Below, piece after piece: positions 15,509-64,000 of a DNA stretch of 64,000 nt. The DNA comes from Agrobacterium larrymoorei (GTDB taxonomy: Bacteria; Pseudomonadota; Alphaproteobacteria; Rhizobiales; Rhizobiaceae). The notes beneath the pieces were generated by a model that saw nothing but the letters and a program-made list of their open reading frames with translations, was not told where the DNA came from and ran no database searches. Both the position numbers and the translations under genes were made by a program. Where the stretch lies: NCBI RefSeq assembly GCF_030819275.1, contig NZ_JAUTBL010000002.1:1304501-1368500 (forward strand), given 5' to 3'. Position 1 is the stretch's first letter; the number at the start of each line of letters is the position of its first letter.

Positions 15509-17365
15509 TCATTCAAGAACATAGGTGCCTGGCGCGTCGCAAAGCGGAGTGAGCCTGCCATCTCCCGGAATGCGCGCCCAGACCTTTTCTCCGCTCTGTG
15601 CCTCAAGCCAGTTCTGCCAATGCGGCCACCAGGATCCGGTATGAACGCTGCTTTGCTGCTGCCATTCTTCAAAATCACCGACGGGTGACGTTCCGGTCCA
15701 GTATTGATATTTGCCAGCATCGGGCGGGTTGACCACGCCTGCAATATGGCCCGAACCACCCAGCACGAACTCGACCGACCCACCGAACGGCTTTGCGCCC
15801 TCGAAGACTGATTTCGCCGGAGCTATGTGGTCGTCGCGCGTGGCAAGATCATAGATCGGGATGGTGACATCCTTTAGGTTCAGTACCTTGCCATCCGCCA
15901 CCATCCGTCCTTCGGCCAGATTGTTTTCCAGATAGCAATTGCGCAGATAGAAGGAATGCACGGCGGCTGCGACGCGGGTGGAATCAGAGTTCCAATAGAG
16001 GAGGTCAAAGGGAGGCGGCTGGGTGCCGCGCAGATAGTTGTCGACCATATAGGGCCAGATCAGATCGGATGCGCGAAGCATGTTGAAGACGCTCGCCATG
16101 ATCGCGCCATCGAGGTAACCGACCGCCTTCATATGGGCATCGAGCGCAGCAAGCTGTGGCTCGTCAATGAAGATCTTCAGATCGCCCGCATGGGTAAAGT
16201 CGGTCTGCGCCGCAAGCAGCGTGGCACTGCGGATGCGATGATCGTTCTTCTGTGCATGCAGGGCGAGGGTGGCAGCCAGAAGCGTGCCGCCGATGCAGTA
16301 GCCCACCGCATTGGCCTCCTGTTCTCCCGTCGCCTCTTCAATCGTGGCAAGCGCAAAGTCGATGCCCTCCTGAATGTAGTCGTCCCATCCTTTTTCTGCG
16401 TGACGTACATCCGGATTGACCCAGGAGATCATGAAGACGCTGTGGCCTTGGTCGACGCACCACTTGACGAAGGATTTCCGGGCGTTGAGATCGAGAATGT
16501 AAAATTTATTGATCCATGGCGGGATGATAAGAAGAGGGCGCTTGAACACCTTTTCCGTCGAGGGGGCATACTGGATGATCTCGCAAAGATCGCTTCGCGC
16601 AATCACCTTACCTGGAGAAACGGCGATGTTCTGGCCGATTACGAACTGGTTATAGTCGGTCTGGCGAAGCCTTAAATGCCCCTTACCAGCCGCCATATCT
16701 TCCGCCAACTGGGCCATTCCTTTGACGAGGTTGGCTCCACTCGTGGCAACCGTTTCGCGAAACACCTGGGGATTGGTGAAGGCAAAGTTGGCTGGAGACA
16801 TCGCCTCAGTCACCTGCCGCATATAGAAGCGTGCCTTTTCCCGGGTCCGCTCGTCCAGCCCGTCAGCCTCTGTCACCATTTTCTCCGCCCAGTCGGCGGT
16901 AGCGAAATAGACCTTCTGCAGAAAGTCGAAAAACGGGTTTGCCTGCCAGTCGTTGTCGGCGAAGCGTTTATGGCCGCTTTTGGCTCCGGCCTGTGGTTTT
17001 TTCTCTCCAGCTTTCCCTTGCTGTTCGGATAGTCGCAGGAGCGATTCTTGCCAGATATCGAAGTAGTTCGACAAAAGGTGGGTCTGCGCCTCGACGGAGC
17101 GCTGCGGCTCGGCCATCCAATATTCCGCCACATCGGACAGCGTCTGGAAGACATCGCTCATCGGGCTCGTGCTGGTGCGCGGAATCTCGCCGCGCTCTCT
17201 GGGTGCCAGCCACTCTGAAGCAGCCTTGCCGAGATTTTCCACAGCTCTGGCGATGTTCATGGCGAAGGCCTGCGGATCGCGAAGAATATAGGCATCGGCA
17301 GATTTGGGATCGAAACTGAACCCTTTGTCCTCAGGATCGTTGGGTCCGCCTCCAATGCCGGCCAT
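15509..17365 (-). CDS. phaC: Class I poly(3-hydroxyalkanoate) synthase
   Basis: Polymerises 3-hydroxyacyl-CoA into polyhydroxyalkanoate at the surface of storage granules. The 618-residue length fits class I PhaC. The lipase-like box AVGYCIGG places the catalytic Cys at 357; the catalytic Asp lies in DDHIAPAKS and the His in GGSGHIAG near the C-terminus. ATG 17365 has GGAGGAG 7 nt upstream; 32 further residues open upstream are not needed. It is divergent from a lipoprotein gene, with a 127-bp region between them. No phaAB or phasin is in the window. Confidence 0.95.
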   Translation of the reverse strand: MAGIGGGPNDPEDKGFSFDPKSADAYILRDPQAFAMNIARAVENLGKAASEWLAPRERGEIPRTSTSPMSDVFQTLSDVAEYWMAEPQRSVEAQTHLLSNYFDIWQESLLRLSEQQGKAGEKKPQAGAKSGHKRFADNDWQANPFFDFLQKVYFATADWAEKMVTEADGLDERTREKARFYMRQVTEAMSPANFAFTNPQVFRETVATSGANLVKGMAQLAEDMAAGKGHLRLRQTDYNQFVIGQNIAVSPGKVIARSDLCEIIQYAPSTEKVFKRPLLIIPPWINKFYILDLNARKSFVKWCVDQGHSVFMISWVNPDVRHAEKGWDDYIQEGIDFALATIEEATGEQEANAVGYCIGGTLLAATLALHAQKNDHRIRSATLLAAQTDFTHAGDLKIFIDEPQLAALDAHMKAVGYLDGAIMASVFNMLRASDLIWPYMVDNYLRGTQPPPFDLLYWNSDSTRVAAAVHSFYLRNCYLENNLAEGRMVADGKVLNLKDVTIPIYDLATRDDHIAPAKSVFEGAKPFGGSVEFVLGGSGHIAGVVNPPDAGKYQYWTGTSPVGDFEEWQQQSSVHTGSWWPHWQNWLEAQSGEKVWARIPGDGRLTPLCDAPGTYVLE

Positions 17366-39714: not shown

Positions 39715-39798
39715 TTCACACTCTCAAACTGTGTGAGACATGTGAGGGCTACGCTAGCGATTTCCCGATAATTTACAACGGTAAGTGCTTGATTCCGT

Positions 39799-39845
39799 TG
39801 GTGAGAGCGCAGGGATTCGAACCCTGGACCTACTGATTAAAAGTT
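39799..39845 (-). other. attL: 3' part of tRNA-Lys(UUU)
   Basis: On the minus strand the anticodon loop CTTTTAA (39837-39843), anticodon 3' stem TCAGT, T-arm CAGGG-TTCGAAT-CCCTG (39810-39826), acceptor strand CGCTCTC (39803-39809), discriminator A and CCA (39799-39801) read as the 3' half of tRNA-Lys(UUU). The 5' half is missing: the bases next to the loop do not pair. This is the duplicated target left by an integrase that crosses over in the anticodon loop; the rebuilt full tRNA should lie at the far right end of the prophage. Confidence 0.85.
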
Positions 39846-40516: not shown

Positions 40517-40697
40517 CGTCGCCCTTCCTTTCGAGCTCGGCTTTTCCGTCCTCGATCGCACGCGCCGCGATCGCACTTTCTCGCCCCTCACGCCTGGCGG
40601 CCGGCACCATGAAGAACTGTGCGCAAAGCAACGTGACAGCGACGGCCGACACGATCCCGCCCAGGGCGAATGCTGCATACTTGAGGCGATCAAGCAC
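40401..40697 (-). CDS. i-spanin (Rz-like)
   Basis: A 98-residue protein with one N-terminal membrane helix (about 8-29) followed by a charged, coiled-coil-like stretch (ARREGRESAIAARAIEDGKA, about 33-52), the i-spanin layout. Its ATG overlaps the endolysin stop by 8 bases, so it is probably coupled. Paired with the overlapping o-spanin gene. Confidence 0.65.
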   Translation of the reverse strand: MLDRLKYAAFALGGIVSAVAVTLLCAQFFMVPAARREGRESAIAARAIEDGKAELERKGDDASLQKSSDYDLCVIGLRGNGMRIDACDQLRGLPEKQP

Positions 40698-41577
40698 CGA
40701 TCTCCTCCTTCATGTCGCGGTAGACCTTCGCGATATCCCCCCGCCTTTTGATCGCATAAAAGGCGAAGCCGGCGACGATGACGATTAGAAGGGCCTGGAC
40801 GTATGGATTGGTGATGAGCGCGATCGCCGGTGCGATCAGTGTGGTAATGATCCACTGCCAGACCGTCTTGGATTTCACGAGTGGCTTGTCGAGCTTTTCC
40901 GGATCCACAGTTTCGGGCGCAATCGGCGCAGCGACGGGAACGGCCGTTGCGCCGCCCCCGTCGTCGGTCGCCTTGGGAGGCAGATCCATATCAGAGCCGA
41001 TTGCATGAATGTCCCGGACATGGCGCAACCGCGCCTCGACCGCTTCAGGGCTGACCAGTGCCTTGTTCAAACCGTCGCCGGCATAATAGCTCTGCCCACG
41101 CTTGACGTCACGATGTGCGCCATGGGTGGCAGACAGTACTGGGAAGCTTGCCCATTCCTTCGCCAGGTTGAGGCCGAAGGCGACGATCGACAGGCGACCA
41201 TCAACAAAGTCCTGATAGCCGCGCCGCAATAGGAGGTAGTAGCCCAGGCGCTTCTGCAGGCTCTCGGAAAACAGGACGTCGCCGCGAAGGGTCGGCACTT
41301 CCTTGCAGATCCCGATCAGGGTGTCGCGCATGAACTGGTACGCACCAGCCGCACTGGATGAGGTGGAGTAACCCCAGTTCTGTTTTACCCAGGCTTTGTT
41401 GCCCCAATTTTTCTGCGCATCGATCAGGTCGCCAAGCGTCATTTTCGTGATCGGCGTTCGCAACTTGCCCTGGCGGTTGCCAAAGATCGTGTCGAAGCCT
41501 TCGGGCGCTTCTTTTCCCTGGATGAAGTCCAGAAGGTTTTGTGCCGCTAGAGGCACGGTCTCGGGTAGCTTCGACAT
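40690..41577 (-). CDS. Endolysin with two C-terminal membrane helices
   Basis: A 295-residue lysozyme/transglycosylase-like protein. The N-terminal catalytic domain (about 10-165) has a Glu in IQGKEAPEGFDTIFG and the SSSAAGAYQFM motif seen in phage muramidases of the lambda-R/GH104-like group. After a Pro/Ala linker (about 200-232) come two hydrophobic helices (about 239-256 and 259-277) and a basic end. This differs from the N-terminal SAR anchor of known secreted endolysins. First gene of the lysis block; i-spanin overlaps its end. Confidence 0.75.
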   Translation of the reverse strand: MSKLPETVPLAAQNLLDFIQGKEAPEGFDTIFGNRQGKLRTPITKMTLGDLIDAQKNWGNKAWVKQNWGYSTSSSAAGAYQFMRDTLIGICKEVPTLRGDVLFSESLQKRLGYYLLLRRGYQDFVDGRLSIVAFGLNLAKEWASFPVLSATHGAHRDVKRGQSYYAGDGLNKALVSPEAVEARLRHVRDIHAIGSDMDLPPKATDDGGGATAVPVAAPIAPETVDPEKLDKPLVKSKTVWQWIITTLIAPAIALITNPYVQALLIVIVAGFAFYAIKRRGDIAKVYRDMKEEIGA

Positions 41578-58830: not shown

Positions 58831-59063
58831 CAGGCGCTACCGAACTTGTCGTTTCCAGAGCCCGACAGATAGGTTTCGTTCATGTATGTCAGCATTCGAC
58901 TGCCGGTCTTGCGTCCGGTCCGTCCTGCCGACGCCTGGTCAACTTCAGCCTGTTGACGCGCGAGATCCGCAAGCGTCCGGCGCTGCTGCGCCGCCGCTTC
59001 CTGCTTCTGCAGTTCCTGCGCTTGTTTGCTCGCCTTGCTGCCCCCGCCTAACATACCGCCCAT
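58830..59063 (-). CDS. Small Gln/Ala-rich virion protein
   Basis: A 77-residue protein (MGGMLGGGSKASKQAQELQK..., with a coiled-coil-like middle and the end TYMNETYLSGSGNDKFGSA). ATG 59063 has AAGGGGA 9 nt upstream. It overlaps the end of the GNAT-like gene by 119 nt in a different frame and meets the portal start. Function unknown. Confidence 0.6.
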   Translation of the reverse strand: MGGMLGGGSKASKQAQELQKQEAAAQQRRTLADLARQQAEVDQASAGRTGRKTGSRMLTYMNETYLSGSGNDKFGSA

Positions 59064-59424
59064 AAGTCAGATCCCCTTCGCTGAAAAGCTGGAAGCCGGA
59101 TGCCGCCGCAATGCGACGCCCGGCCTCTGTGTGGCAGATCACCACGATTTCAGGGTAAGAGCGGGAAGCTAAGGTCAACCGTATGTCCCGGATCAGCCGA
59201 AGCATGAAGGGAGCGCCTTCAGGGCGAATATCGAACCAGGCCTCGGCACCCTCCTCGATCGGATAGAGACCGAAAACACCCAACAGTTTGTCGTCATCGC
59301 GCATGGCGAAGGTTTCGCCAGTGCGCCACATCTCGCGCGCAACTGCCCAGTGAATGCGGGTGGTGGCGCCACAGAGCTCCGCCACGTCGAAGAGTGTTGC
59401 GGGGCTATCTAGCCGGTAGCTCAT
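58945..59424 (-). CDS. GNAT-like virion protein
   Basis: A 159-residue protein that follows the GNAT fold (LLGVFGLYPIEEGAEAWFDIRP near 47-68, GRRIAAASGFQLFSEGD near 103-120), resembling the gp13-type acetyltransferase-like proteins of T7-like phages. The last 30 residues are Gly/Ala-rich and lie over the next gene, so they may be passively open. Its ATG overlaps the TerL stop as ATGA. Confidence 0.6.
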   Translation of the reverse strand: MSYRLDSPATLFDVAELCGATTRIHWAVAREMWRTGETFAMRDDDKLLGVFGLYPIEEGAEAWFDIRPEGAPFMLRLIRDIRLTLASRSYPEIVVICHTEAGRRIAAASGFQLFSEGDLTYGRYVRRGQQGEQTSAGTAEAGSGGAAAPDACGSRASTG

Positions 59425-61094
59425 TGCAAGCCCGCCTTATGCGGATCAAAGCCCCCCCGACCCCACGGGGAGCGAGAAGATCCCGGCGCACGTGATCGGC
59501 CGGCGTCACGCTCTTTGTCAGAAGCTGCCCGGATAATGCCGGCCCGTCCTCGGAAACCTATGATCAGATATTGCAGCGCGTCCTGGACGTCGGCCCAAGG
59601 GTGCGTTTTTTCCGGCTGCTCTTCAAATTCGGTTGAAGCATGTTCCTTGCGGCGTTTGTAACGATACTTCCCGTCAAAGCCCTCGAGGAGGAGAGGGCAC
59701 TTTTCCGGGCATATCAGGAGTTCGCTTTGCGGTTCGTGATAGCCGCGGAGTTCCGTTTTCACCGCATCCAGGCGCATGCCCAATTCATTCGAGCCATTGC
59801 CCGGAATGAGGATCGGCAGGCTCAAAATCATGGCGATCGTTTCCATCGATGTCAGCTGGCCGCCTTCCTTGTCGGCGCCATACTCGGCCGCCGGGTCACA
59901 CCAGATCCGGATCTTGGTGGCGCCGCCGTAATCCTCCCGGATCTTTCGCTCGAGGCCTTCGCCGAAGCGTGCGGCGCCGACGCCATGATCGAGATAAAGC
60001 TCGTCGATGGCGCAGATCCTTGATCCCTTGATCTGGCCGAAAACTGCAGCCGGGTTCAGGGTGTTCATCGAAATATCGATGCCGATGCCTAGGGTAAGCT
60101 TTGGCTCGAAGTAGATCCGCGATCGCGCGACGTGAATATCTCGGTTGAACTTTTCGAACACCGGCTTGCCATGCCGTGAATATCCAAACTCGTTGTCCAC
60201 CATGCGCTTGATGAAATGGTCTTCCTGGTTGCGCACGATGCGATCGTAATAGTCCGGATCCAGGTTGAAGCGGTTTTCCGCTTGGGCAGACCGGCCGGAC
60301 GGCTGGCGAAATAGGTGGCGATCCTCAGTCGGCTCCTTGATGAACTTCTTATAGACCCAGTTATCAACGGTCGGCGCGTTTAGATCGCCGATGACCTGGC
60401 GTTGACGCTGGCCGGAATAGATCGTGCGCCCGAGCTCGCGGCCAAGCTTCTCGAGCTCCGCAACCGTGAGCAAGATATTAGCCGATGGATAACGGCCGAC
60501 GCGCTGCTCGAGGTCATCAAGCGCCCCGTCTGCGTGGGTGTCCGCCTCGTTCAACCAGGCGCCGGAATATTCGCGGCCCTTCATCAGCGTTTCGATGGAG
60601 TTTTCGCCAAGGCCGGCAAATTCGGTGACGATCTCGATCCGAACGCCGTCGGTGCCCATGAAGCGCAGTGTATGGGTCACAGGCCTATCATTGCCGCCGG
60701 CCCATTTGGAGCCAGGAAAGCCCTTGGGAAACCATTGCTTCCAGCTTTCCAGAACCGTCTTTTCCGCCGATCGGAACGTGTCGCGCAGCACCACCCACCG
60801 ACACATGCGGGTGGGCTTCTTGTCTTCCGGATGCCACGCCACCGGCGCCAGGGTGGCCGCCATGATGCGTCTGAACGCGCATAGGGTGGTCTTGCCGCCA
60901 CCAAGCGGGCCCATGACGAAGGTCGTCAGATAGGAGGAGTTGAGGAAGCCCTCACCGACAGGACCAGGCGGCGTGTAATTGAAGGGATCGAAATCGCCGA
61001 CATAGTCGAGATCCGCGATCTTCTTGCGCATTTCGGCGTCAGAAAAGGTCCGGACGTCGTCGCGCGTGATGATATCGGAAATGTGCTGGCTCAT
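59421..61094 (-). CDS. terL: Terminase large subunit
   Basis: A 557-residue packaging motor that cuts and pumps phage DNA. Walker A is GPLGGGKTT (about 62-70), a Walker B-like LNEADTHADG near 180-190, and the C-terminal nuclease has DISMNTLNPAAVFG (about 333-346) and CDPAAEYGADKEGG (about 390-403) acidic clusters. ATG 61094 has GGAG 7 nt upstream. An extension to 61142 is open but unneeded. Confidence 0.88.
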   Translation of the reverse strand: MSQHISDIITRDDVRTFSDAEMRKKIADLDYVGDFDPFNYTPPGPVGEGFLNSSYLTTFVMGPLGGGKTTLCAFRRIMAATLAPVAWHPEDKKPTRMCRWVVLRDTFRSAEKTVLESWKQWFPKGFPGSKWAGGNDRPVTHTLRFMGTDGVRIEIVTEFAGLGENSIETLMKGREYSGAWLNEADTHADGALDDLEQRVGRYPSANILLTVAELEKLGRELGRTIYSGQRQRQVIGDLNAPTVDNWVYKKFIKEPTEDRHLFRQPSGRSAQAENRFNLDPDYYDRIVRNQEDHFIKRMVDNEFGYSRHGKPVFEKFNRDIHVARSRIYFEPKLTLGIGIDISMNTLNPAAVFGQIKGSRICAIDELYLDHGVGAARFGEGLERKIREDYGGATKIRIWCDPAAEYGADKEGGQLTSMETIAMILSLPILIPGNGSNELGMRLDAVKTELRGYHEPQSELLICPEKCPLLLEGFDGKYRYKRRKEHASTEFEEQPEKTHPWADVQDALQYLIIGFRGRAGIIRAASDKERDAGRSRAPGSSRSPWGRGGFDPHKAGLQ

Positions 61095-61608
61095 TGGTTG
61101 GCTCCGACGGTTGCCCCAGCTGCCGGCGCGCGCATAGCGCATGCGCGCCGGCCCCTAAGCAAGTCGGCTGAAAGCTGCAAACCGGCAGGTTTGCGGGTTG
61201 AGGCCGCCCGCTTGCCAATCCACTCCCCAAGACGAGATAGAAAATTACCCCCGACCCCCAGGAGGGCAGGGAGAGGCGCGGTGACGACGCCGACCCGGAC
61301 CCCGACCCCAAGGCGGAGGAGATCAAACGCGGCGCAAGCGCTCCAAATCGCCCCCTGAAACCGGCTTGAGGCCCATTGCGAAAAATGGGATCGGTGCGCG
61401 GGCGCTCCCCCCCAGGGGGTGGGGTGCCCCCCGCTTCGGGGGAAGGCCCCCCGGCCGGGCGCCGCTGCCAGCCATGCAGGGGGGGCATACCGGACGCGGC
61501 CTGGCGAGCGGCGCCCAGGCCGACCGTCTAAATGGTGCCGGTCCCCCTCGAGATCCGGCCAAGGCAACTGATATCCTATCAGCCAACGGAAACCGTAACG
61601 CATTGATA
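61095..61608. other. Structured GC-rich region between terS and terL
   Basis: No gene is supported in these 514 bp. It has strong inverted repeats: GCCGGCGCGC... (61122-61152) about 28 nt before terL and GCAAACC/GGTTTGC (61177-61194), then C-rich runs on the plus strand (about 61248-61311) that give G-quadruplex-prone runs on the minus strand, and long G/C homopolymers (61404-61492). It could be a packaging (cos/pac) site or a leader. Confidence 0.5.
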
Positions 61609-62202
61609 TCAATTCGCTTTCTTCATCGTGGGACTTTGAGCCGTGGGACTTTCGCCCGCGCCACCCGCTAAGTTATTGATTTCATTGGGGGTGACATCGA
61701 CCAGCGGACGGCCGACGGACAGGCCGCGTTGGGCCGCCACGCTCTGCGCCTGGGCAATCTGGTTGGTGCCGGAGTTGATGACCAGGATCGGCAATCGTTC
61801 ATCCTCGACCACCACGCGCACCGGCGCCTTGCCGTGCAGGTATGGCGCCAGGTCACGCGCACAGGCCAGCTGCTCTTTCACAATCTCGCCCAGGGACGGC
61901 ACCGCCTTGCCGGTCTTCTTGCCGATCGCCTTCAGCGTCCGCTCATGCTCGCAAAAGAAGGCCTGAATGCCCACCGGATCCGCGCTCATGAACTCCGCCT
62001 GCATCTGCAGCGGATCCTTATAGCCCTGGGCCTCGTACCAGGCGGCGAAGTCCTGCGTTTTGCGGTTCCGCGCGCCGGCCGGGCGGCCACGGCCGCGCTT
62101 CGCCGCCTTCTTCGGGTCGTGATCGGCCAGCGCGCCGGCGGCCTCGGCACGCCAATCCTGTCCCTCTGAACCATTATCGTCGAATTTATTATTCGAGCTC
62201 AT
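61609..62202 (-). CDS. Small terminase subunit candidate
   Basis: A 197-residue protein with a basic DNA-binding-like stretch near the N-terminus (KKAAKRGRGRPAGARNRKTQ, about 31-50), helical middle (about 60-130) and a disordered end. It lies upstream of TerL, the usual place of TerS. No clear family motif; the call rests on place and basic N-terminus. Confidence 0.5.
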   Translation of the reverse strand: MSSNNKFDDNGSEGQDWRAEAAGALADHDPKKAAKRGRGRPAGARNRKTQDFAAWYEAQGYKDPLQMQAEFMSADPVGIQAFFCEHERTLKAIGKKTGKAVPSLGEIVKEQLACARDLAPYLHGKAPVRVVVEDERLPILVINSGTNQIAQAQSVAAQRGLSVGRPLVDVTPNEINNLAGGAGESPTAQSPTMKKAN

Positions 62203-62222
62203 GAGCTTCCGCTGTCTTGCAA

Positions 62223-62453
62223 GTGTCTAACCTCTGTCTAATAAAATTATCCATATAAAACATATGGTTAGATATATATTTAGACAGTTAGACAGATAGA
62301 CAGCGTTATGCCTCGTATACACACGCTCACTTGCGCACATTATGAGGAGTTTTGCTGTCTAACTGTCTAACTGTCTAATGATCCTGATTATCATAATGAA
62401 ATCAGATGGTTGTGTTTCGCTGCGCGTTAGACACTCATTAGACAGTTAGACAG
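62223..62453. repeat. Iteron cluster, TTAGACAG repeats
   Basis: Eleven copies of the 8-mer TTAGACAG or its complement CTGTCTAA, with at most one mismatch each, start at 62223, 62234 (complement), 62280, 62288, 62296 (direct), 62355, 62363, 62371 (complement), 62427, 62438, 62446 (direct). Blocks alternate in orientation and lie about 46-51 bp apart; block 2 against block 3 is a 24-bp inverted repeat with one mismatch. It is most likely a binding array of a replication or control protein. Confidence 0.85.
62240..62280. other. AT-rich tract beside the iterons
   Basis: A run with very few G/C bases (AATAAAATTATCC, TATAAAACATATG, ATATATATTT) between the first and second repeat blocks, the composition of a DNA-unwinding element. 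It could also hold the promoter of the small-terminase gene, read leftward. Confidence 0.55.
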
Positions 62454-62606
62454 TTTGCGGCGAGACGACACACGCCTAGGGATACGGTACAGCAAGGCAA
62501 AAACCGTCAACCACGCCGTTTCGAGCATACCGGAGGGTCGGGGTGCGGGTTTTGCCCTGAAAATGGACGCGGAATGGCGGGCCTCTGCCGCCAATGGTTG
62601 CAGGGG

Positions 62607-64000
62607 TCATTTACTTAACCACCTCGTATACTCGTAGAGAGAAATGAAGCTGCAGCGCGCTTGGCGGCCGGCGACGGTGACGCGATTATCGAAATGGCCG
62701 GGCTTTAGCTCGAGCTTTTGCCGGACCACACGCGGGTCGCCACGCTTGAACGCGAAGCTCCAGGATCCTTGCTGCCCGTTGGAGAAAGGCGTGCCGGCGA
62801 GCGCCTTGGCGAGCACGCGGCTCTGGTTGGGTATCGCCAGGCAGTAATTCTTAGAATGATCCGGATCCTCGACAAGGCCGATATCGATCAGTGACAGCCG
62901 ATCGCGCACTTCGTTGATGCTCTCGCCGTTCTTGATCCGCTCGACTTCCTGGGCGACGGTGCGACGAGCTCCGCCGGAATAGTTCTCGATGACAGAGGTT
63001 TGGATGCTGATAAGCACCTGCTCCCAGGTCGGCGCACGTCCCTCGAGCTCCGGCACGAGATCCGCCGCGAGCCACTTGCCCCAGGGCGACAGATCCTCAT
63101 GAGGTAGACCAAGCGCTTTCAAGCCTTCGTCGCCTAGCATGGTGTGAGCGACTGCCAGAAACGTGCCGAATGTCTTCTGGCCTCGGCTGTCGTGGCCGTG
63201 CTCGCGCAATATGTTGGCGTAATCGTCCAGCTTGTACTGCAGATCTTTCCAGCTATCCGCCAGCCGGCGCAAGAGCCGGGGGCCGACGGTGTCAGCTTCA
63301 GGCAAGACAGGCGCTTTGTTGCTGCCTGGATCCAGCGGCATAAGCTGGATGATTGCGAGCCTGGTCATGGAAGCCGGGGGCAGGGGCGGCGGGTTGATGC
63401 CGGAAAAGAAGAACGTGGACTGCGCCTGGAACTCGACGCCTTTATGGTTCTGGCCGCCGCGAATACGCACGGATCCGGACGCAGCATCGCGCGCCATCTT
63501 GATCACCTTCTGCGCCTGGTCGATCCCGTCGTCGCCCTCGAGCTCGTCGATCGCGATCGGCACGCTGTCATGCCCGACCAGCTGATAGAGACCCGCCTCG
63601 GTCGCGTTGGTCGTGGACACCATCATGCGGCCAAGAATGGTCTTCAGCACGCCGTTCTTGCCGTTGAGCTCTGACTTGCCCACGCCGGCGTCGCCGACGA
63701 TCATCATTGACGGTCGCCATTCAAGGGCGCCGCCCAACATGGCGACGCCGATCGCGCCCAGGACGATGATCGGATCGACCTCCTTACGGTCCATGTTCCA
63801 GGTGCGCAGGATCTCGACGACCTTCACGGCCGGATTGTTTGCGGCCGTGATCGGCTCATGCCATGGCACCATGGCACGCGGCCGGCGCACATACAGATGA
63901 TCGTCATACTCGCCGGTTTCGAACGTCTCACCGTTGATCCACAGGCTATCGCCGCAATGCAGGATCAAGCCGCCCTTGCTGTCACGCCAGGCGCCACGGC
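62607..64000 (-). CDS. Phage helicase/primase-type ATPase, partial
   Basis: The reading frame continues past the right window edge (GAWRDSKGGLILHCGDSLW-type lead-in), so at least the N-terminus is missing. The visible 460 residues have Walker A VGDAGVGKS (about 105-113 of the visible part), a Walker B-like IAIDELEGDD and an Arg-rich motor region, like phage D5/DUF927-type replicative helicases. It ends 150 bp from the iteron cluster, which it or its partner may bind. Confidence 0.75.
   Translation of the reverse strand, partial: RGAWRDSKGGLILHCGDSLWINGETFETGEYDDHLYVRRPRAMVPWHEPITAANNPAVKVVEILRTWNMDRKEVDPIIVLGAIGVAMLGGALEWRPSMMIVGDAGVGKSELNGKNGVLKTILGRMMVSTTNATEAGLYQLVGHDSVPIAIDELEGDDGIDQAQKVIKMARDAASGSVRIRGGQNHKGVEFQAQSTFFFSGINPPPLPPASMTRLAIIQLMPLDPGSNKAPVLPEADTVGPRLLRRLADSWKDLQYKLDDYANILREHGHDSRGQKTFGTFLAVAHTMLGDEGLKALGLPHEDLSPWGKWLAADLVPELEGRAPTWEQVLISIQTSVIENYSGGARRTVAQEVERIKNGESINEVRDRLSLIDIGLVEDPDHSKNYCLAIPNQSRVLAKALAGTPFSNGQQGSWSFAFKRGDPRVVRQKLELKPGHFDNRVTVAGRQARCSFISLYEYTRWLSK

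Follow-up and report, generated by a model that had tools for sequence, protein, structure and literature searches.

A mirror-symmetric iteron array downstream of an AAA+ ATPase gene as a probable prophage replication origin in Agrobacterium larrymoorei

A prophage in the 64,000-nt stretch of Agrobacterium larrymoorei contig NZ_JAUTBL010000002.1 analysed here (the window) carries an array of 8-bp repeats directly downstream of a gene for a 617-aa AAA+ ATPase. We conclude, with a probability of nearly nine in ten, that the prophage starts its replication at this array, and that the ATPase, a self-loading initiator helicase of the prophage itself, binds there. The conclusion rests on a symmetric geometry that relatives of the ATPase retain at the same position while the repeat sequence changes, on comparisons that link the repeats with the ATPase and not with the terminase small subunit (TerS), and on the helicase-like fold of the ATPase.

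Array geometry and its conservation

The array comprises eight exact copies of TTAGACAG (at 62234, 62280, 62288, 62355, 62363, 62371, 62438 and 62446) and three copies with one mismatch (62223, 62296 and 62427), matching the eleven copies in strand-alternating blocks reported in the initial annotation; in 100 dinucleotide shuffles the window contained 0.63 exact copies on average and never more than 3. A degenerate twelfth copy, CTGTCTTG, with two mismatches (62212-62219), is placed outward of the 62223 copy at a distance of exactly 11 bp, and in close relatives (L041 and L043, for example) the repeat at this position is intact. Because the degenerate copy keeps the 11-bp register and is intact in these relatives, we take the plan of the array to be 3+3+3+3; the four blocks originally described stand, while their sizes (2+3+3+3) do not. 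In the orientation of the ATPase gene, the blocks follow the mirror-symmetric order A> B< B'> A'<, with three units each. The even 8-bp unit described at first is found in the inner blocks only, the outer blocks being built on 11-bp steps (62223 to 62234; 62427 to 62438) and block A containing a single 8-bp step as well. The gaps between blocks measure 38, 51 and 48 bp, the latter two fitting the earlier estimate of about 50 bp and the first falling short of it, and the A+T-rich stretch noted beside the repeats is the gap between B' and A' (Table 1).

The array is unique in its genome: a 16-mer of two joined repeats occurs at no other locus in 4.88 Mb, and TTAGACAG, with 28 sites genome-wide (8 of them in the array) compared with 80 for the reversed pattern, is not enriched elsewhere. 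The most frequent hexamer reaches 11 copies per 330 bp in the array; elsewhere in the window, among 61 tiles of 1 kb, it reaches 3-5, save in one tile with 6 and one with 8.

A first search with the ATPase yielded 12 viral and 2 Martelella loci, in 13 of which the array follows the ATPase gene within ~200 bp; in the exception, L017, ~700 bp of other sequence precedes the array, which still adjoins terS. The Martelella alba prophage (L018/L019) has four blocks alike, built from a different unit, TTGTCCCR. An alignment search gave at least 80 viral loci, and the scanned set of 90 consisted of 80 viral loci, seven phage or plasmid records and three earlier loci, some duplicates included. Within the first 900 bp past the ATPase stop codon, the top hexamer occurs 8-14 times in 55 of these 90 loci, compared with maxima of 4-7 in 50 shuffles per region. 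Fifteen loci were dropped, either as duplicates or near-duplicates (L008, L041, L042, L044, L048, L050, L018, L100 and L106) or for having no clear array or a distant one (L024, L069, L087, L109, L110 and L117); L095, L104 and L115, with 7-8 copies far downstream, were left out as arrays by judgement. The pair of inner blocks of this plan was found in 48 relatives, ~1 kb or less downstream of the ATPase gene. These 48 arrays, to which the window's own does not belong, share descent, and the counts that follow are not independent.

Of 145 inner steps, 117 measure 8 bp; the outer steps, 153 in number, are 11 or 12 bp long in 104 cases. Counted with a position-weight matrix, 52 of the 96 halves contain six sites (5 in 24, 7 in 10, 4 in 5, 3 in 3 and 8 in 2), and whole arrays contain 12 sites in 17 cases and 11 in 16. 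By eye, the block make-up of the halves varies (3+3, 4+2, 1+3+2, 3+1+2, 1+2+3), with a sum that stays near six. Since six repeats per half is the most frequent number, the counts suggest one repeat per subunit of a double hexamer. The unit itself drifts. The same count distinguishes 25 core hexamers in a fixed frame, which form 15 clusters by any shared 6-mer when register is ignored and only 6 by any shared 5-mer, indicating that many of the units are related. Conservation in relatives with the same ATPase, on which the initial annotation had made its phage-origin reading depend, therefore holds for position and geometry and not for letters; with the plan present on small plasmids as well, that reading is strengthened.

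In fourteen loci, L063 of the 48 among them, 8-12 copies cluster at a downstream distance of 0.8-3 kb from the ATPase gene; their spacing was measured in L063 only. Across the class, 8 of the 385 genomes searched have the ATPase, the present one included. The other seven genomes hold 8 ATPase loci, five of them with clusters of 9-12 copies (L033, L040, L164, L168 and L169), two seen in the initial stretches and three more in longer stretches of six loci. The sites number exactly 12 in both L164 and L169, at steps of 8-9 and 10-12 bp; the L168 cluster lies ~5 kb downstream, and that of L040 has one irregular half. L166 and L036/L167 show 5-6 copies only, and L165 has no repeat cluster up to the contig end.

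The centre of symmetry is occupied by an alternating purine-pyrimidine tract. Alternating runs average 18.3 in the 48 centres, compared with 6.2 in shuffles, and reach at least 12 in 42 of them, compared with 1% of shuffles; gaps and flanks stay at shuffle level. Mean A+T content in the relatives is 42% in the centre and 66% in the B'-A' gap, the most A+T-rich segment. In four A+T-rich Arsenophonus plasmids the longest alternating runs span 10-13 bp and include TA/CA steps, so the property kept in the centre seems to be alternation rather than GC content.

The gaps are enriched in candidate sites for integration host factor (IHF), whose consensus is WATCAANNNNTTR. Of 40 A-B gaps, 10 have a match at 8 or more of the 9 positions on one strand and 11 on the other (null expectation 0.64 and 0.53); the enrichment is weaker in the B'-A' gaps (10 and 10 of 45; null 2.45 and 2.19), compared with none of the 48 centres on either strand and 0-3 in the flanks. 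De novo motif searches, with seven near-duplicates removed and the window's own array added, returned TCAAnnncTTGa from a set of 35 A-B gaps (likelihood score 89, against 33-40 in shuffles) and a motif scoring 79 from a set of 39 B'-A' gaps (29-35 in shuffles).

Linkage of the repeats to the ATPase or to TerS

The most serious alternative, though an improbable one, is a packaging (cos or pac) site, at which TerS would bind the repeats and the terminase large subunit (TerL) would cut the symmetric centre. Here, and frequently in other loci, terS lies right beside the array, even where the array is 0.8-3 kb away from the ATPase gene, and two-fold symmetry with a conserved centre would suit cutting. 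The comparisons below nevertheless link the repeats to the ATPase rather than to TerS.

Within the Martelella set, a switch of unit from TGTCTA to TGTCCC goes with an ATPase C-terminal identity of 65-67%, compared with 84.5% for a same-unit pair, while the AAA+ part remains 92% identical (95% for the same-unit pair) and the N-terminal half of TerS 85-86% (92.5%). Four Arsenophonus nasoniae plasmids of 8-12 kb (L027, L158, L159 and L161; three recorded as linear, paNv_CAN17 as circular) carry both ATPase and array, with four differing units laid out, by eye, on one plan of 4+2 mirrored as 2+4; one half in paPv13 has more. Between paPv13 and paNv_CAN17, whose units differ, the AAA+ part is 99% identical, TerS 92.8% and the C-terminal region 69%. 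The three sister plasmids with a terS gene have TerS proteins that are 93-96% identical, yet three different repeats, and terS lies kilobases away from the array. The fourth, paNv_CH14, has a full array right after its ATPase gene. No TerS was found there by annotation or by tblastn with the three sister TerS proteins (chance matches only, with E of at least 5.9), and tblastn gave no TerL either (best E 0.61), nor is another obvious replication gene present among the five annotated genes of a possibly incomplete table. In both comparisons, then, the array neither depends on nor covaries with TerS, and a TerS-bound packaging site is unlikely because paNv_CH14 has the array without the protein and near-identical TerS proteins accompany three different repeats.

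Further loci point the same way. The gene after the L111 array looks NusG-like by eye rather than terS-like, and the terL loci L028, L030, L155 and L157, which lack an ATPase match but include a stretch of upstream sequence, contain at most 7, 7, 5 and 5 copies of a hexamer, respectively. When TerL was used as the anchor, the ATPase was present in 31 of 41 loci and the array in all 31, although 20 of these are contigs already found by the ATPase search. Among the ten loci with no ATPase match, L141 and L151 have an array just inside the contig start, the contigs of L129 and L133 begin at most 0.6 kb from terL, and the remaining six contain at most 7 copies of any hexamer.

One result weighs against the ATPase as the protein that reads the repeats: over all pairs, C-terminal identity is independent of iteron similarity, with no global covariation. 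Fast divergence of the C-terminal region and a similarity measure that depends on register are perhaps responsible. As a separate observation, the hexamer GGTTCT/AGAACC points one way along the block plan in L085/L089/L090 and the other way in L093/L105/L022; the initiators of these two groups differ in their C-terminal sequences.

A role of the array in incompatibility, copy control or partition, and not as the initiation site itself, appears less probable still. Iterons of many plasmids control copy number, and the plasmids paPv13 and paPv15 share a strain yet carry different units, which suggests that incompatibility drove the divergence of the Arsenophonus units; however, the array resembles known origins in its symmetry of six plus six sites, in its A+T-rich gap and in lying 3' of a helicase-type initiator. 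Least probable is an operator at which a repressor or activator would control transcription from the leftward late (terS) promoter: an outer block does lie just upstream of the terS start codon, but the twelve mirror-symmetric sites span 240 bp, the array is kept 3' of the ATPase gene on plasmids with no terS next to it, and the next terS-like open reading frame is 366-704 bp from the array in nine loci. No operator need be invoked, although a second, autoregulatory role is compatible with an origin.

Possible mechanism and known systems

The best structural match of the ATPase is Cch, and its fold is that of an AAA+ helicase. The C-terminal domain alone has weak structure matches only, several of which we take to be winged-helix proteins. 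We propose that this domain reads the 8-bp iteron, and that each half of the array (outer plus inner block, about six iterons) would seat one hexamer with one iteron per subunit. The two inverted halves would then place two hexamers face to face across the alternating purine-pyrimidine tract, and IHF or a similar bender acting in the gaps could bring the outer block of each half back against the inner one. Melting might start in the A+T-rich gap at 62242-62279 or in the alternating centre. More tentatively, and with somewhat less than even confidence, we suggest a grammar independent of letters (mirrored six-iteron halves, a double hexamer, IHF folding and an alternating centre), in which the C-terminal domain and the repeat co-diverge into private codes that let replicons share a cell. 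About 15 units, plus those of the Arsenophonus plasmids, would be the private codes so far.

Iteron origins downstream of the gene for a helicase-type initiator are a known kind. Like the origins of P4, of phage-inducible chromosomal islands (PICIs) and of Staphylococcus aureus pathogenicity islands (SaPIs), the present array adjoins the gene of an AAA+ helicase-type initiator, lies directly 3' of it and consists of opposed iteron sets. The CFT073 element between roxA and phoQ, presumably EcCICFT073 judging from strain and gene order, has an origin of 11 TCTACC units arranged mirror-symmetrically as > 9 > 46 < 22 > 11 > 9 > 31 < 11 < 22 > 46 < 9 <. It resembles the present array in lying immediately 3' of the initiator gene and in its opposed iteron sets with outer gaps of 46 bp, but differs in its primase-helicase initiator, in block order and steps, and in the centre, where we noticed no purine-pyrimidine alternation by eye; moreover, it is a satellite, whereas the present element is a full-size prophage with structural genes. 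According to PMC6092414, PICI origins are placed 3' of rep, with two iteron sets of opposite orientation flanking an A+T-rich region and the TerS gene sometimes next, and deletion of the EcCICFT073 ori lowered colony numbers.

SaPI Rep and the SCCmec proteins Cch (the best structural match) and Cch2 also have downstream iteron origins. Excerpts of PMC7581432 describe binding of the Cch2 C-terminal domain to repeats 3' of its gene; SaPI Rep appears to bind as two hexamers (excerpts of PMC7581432 and PMC9894130), and the opposed repeats of SaPI origins direct two head-to-head hexamers (excerpt of PMC9894130). Their sequence similarity to the present ATPase is below the reach of family models, and the four-block 11/8/8/11 plan is not described in these excerpts. 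The initial comparison with P4 was apt: the cis-required region crr of P4 is annotated directly 3' of the P4 initiator gene, alpha, and contains inverted 8-bp type I iterons, of which P4 ori has six. The P4 unit, however, is TGTTCACC, and P4 has its cis sites, crr and ori, apart from each other, whereas here 12 sites form a single mirrored array. Membership in the P4 family proper was rejected, as TIGR01613 is missing from the ATPase and the repeat unit is not TGTTCACC; a classical RepA-type iteron plasmid origin was also rejected, the neighbouring protein being an AAA+ helicase-like ATPase. The double-hexamer origins of SV40 and MCM are unrelated as origins, and the recognition domain, proposed here to be C-terminal, is N-terminal in T antigen (excerpt of PMC7581432).

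Within helicase origins of the P4, PICI and SaPI type, the four-block plan looks new: neither the fixed 11/8/8/11 plan nor six sites per half, an alternating centre or wide drift of the unit was found in searches of the open-access literature, which leaves most subscription journals outside, or in the excerpts cited above. The full-size prophages and small plasmids would extend this known kind of origin. Double-hexamer helicase initiators have been studied in SV40, MCM and SaPIs, and the ATPase family adds about 15 natural repeats on one geometry, a series that includes sister plasmids with a 99% identical helicase part. It makes testable whether each helicase subunit has one site, how the C-terminal code changes and what role the alternating centre plays. 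The plan also offers a sequence rule for spotting origins in unannotated prophages and plasmids.

Prophage context and feature coordinates

A 47-bp direct repeat, detected as a shared 16-mer run, is located at 39798-39844 of the window and at 15930-15976 of locus L005, where it overlaps a tRNA-Lys(ttt) gene (15931-16006). The two copies are likely the attachment sites of the prophage, which, bounded by them, measures ~37 kb. Along its minus strand lie, among others and in this order, a gene for a 358-aa protein (similar by eye to TOPRIM primases), the ATPase gene, the array (beginning 153 bp past the ATPase stop codon), the terS-position gene, terL, and genes for a head-tail connector, the major head protein and tail proteins.

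Table 1 Features of the array and adjoining genes (window coordinates unless stated)
Feature	Position	Strand	Details
Outer block A (nearest the ATPase gene)	62427-62453	+	TTAGACAC 62427, TTAGACAG 62438, TTAGACAG 62446; steps 11 and 8 bp
IHF-like site AATCAGATGGTTG, A-B gap	62400-62412	+	8/9 positions of the consensus WATCAANNNNTTR
Inner block B	62355-62378	-	three exact copies, 8-bp period
Centre between inner blocks	62311-62347		CCTC...GAGG borders; alternating purine-pyrimidine run CGTATACACACGC 62314-62326
Inner block B'	62280-62303	+	TTAGACAG 62280 and 62288, ATAGACAG 62296; 8-bp period
A+T-rich gap B'-A'	62242-62279		84% A+T; candidate unwinding element
Outer block A' (next to terS)	62212-62241	-	CTGTCTTG 62212 (degenerate), GTGTCTAA 62223, CTGTCTAA 62234; 11-bp period
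AAA+ ATPase, initiator type	L005 1607-3460; 3' part 62607-64000	-	617 aa
terS-like gene	61609-62202	-	197 aa; named by position, no family match; starts 9 bp from the degenerate repeat
terL, terminase large subunit	59421-61142	-	tblastn to annotated TerL genes

Pfam returned nothing at E 1e-3 for the 463-aa ATPase part in the window, TerS or TerL, and neither Pfam nor NCBIfam had a model that matched the whole ATPase at E 0.01. Among 49 members of the ATPase family, DUF927 matches 2 and TIGR01613 matches 10 (E of 0.01 or lower), the 617-aa ATPase being in neither group. No match in phage records was obtained with the TerS protein or with the DNA of 59000-63998, no Rfam family matched in 61000-63000, and GC skew was uninformative as origin evidence for the array region.

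The terS-position protein contains an RGRGRP motif that appears AT-hook-like by eye, and a similar GRPKG stretch is present in 4 of 5 related proteins aligned with it. An alignment of TerS proteins had diverged too far to serve as a search query. Translations of L005 10456-11082 and 13121-14398 look by eye like a probable prophage repressor and integrase, respectively. Elsewhere in the window, GATCGC occurs eight times within 330 bp at 40554-40837, the sole other hexamer cluster of this size among the 61 tiles.
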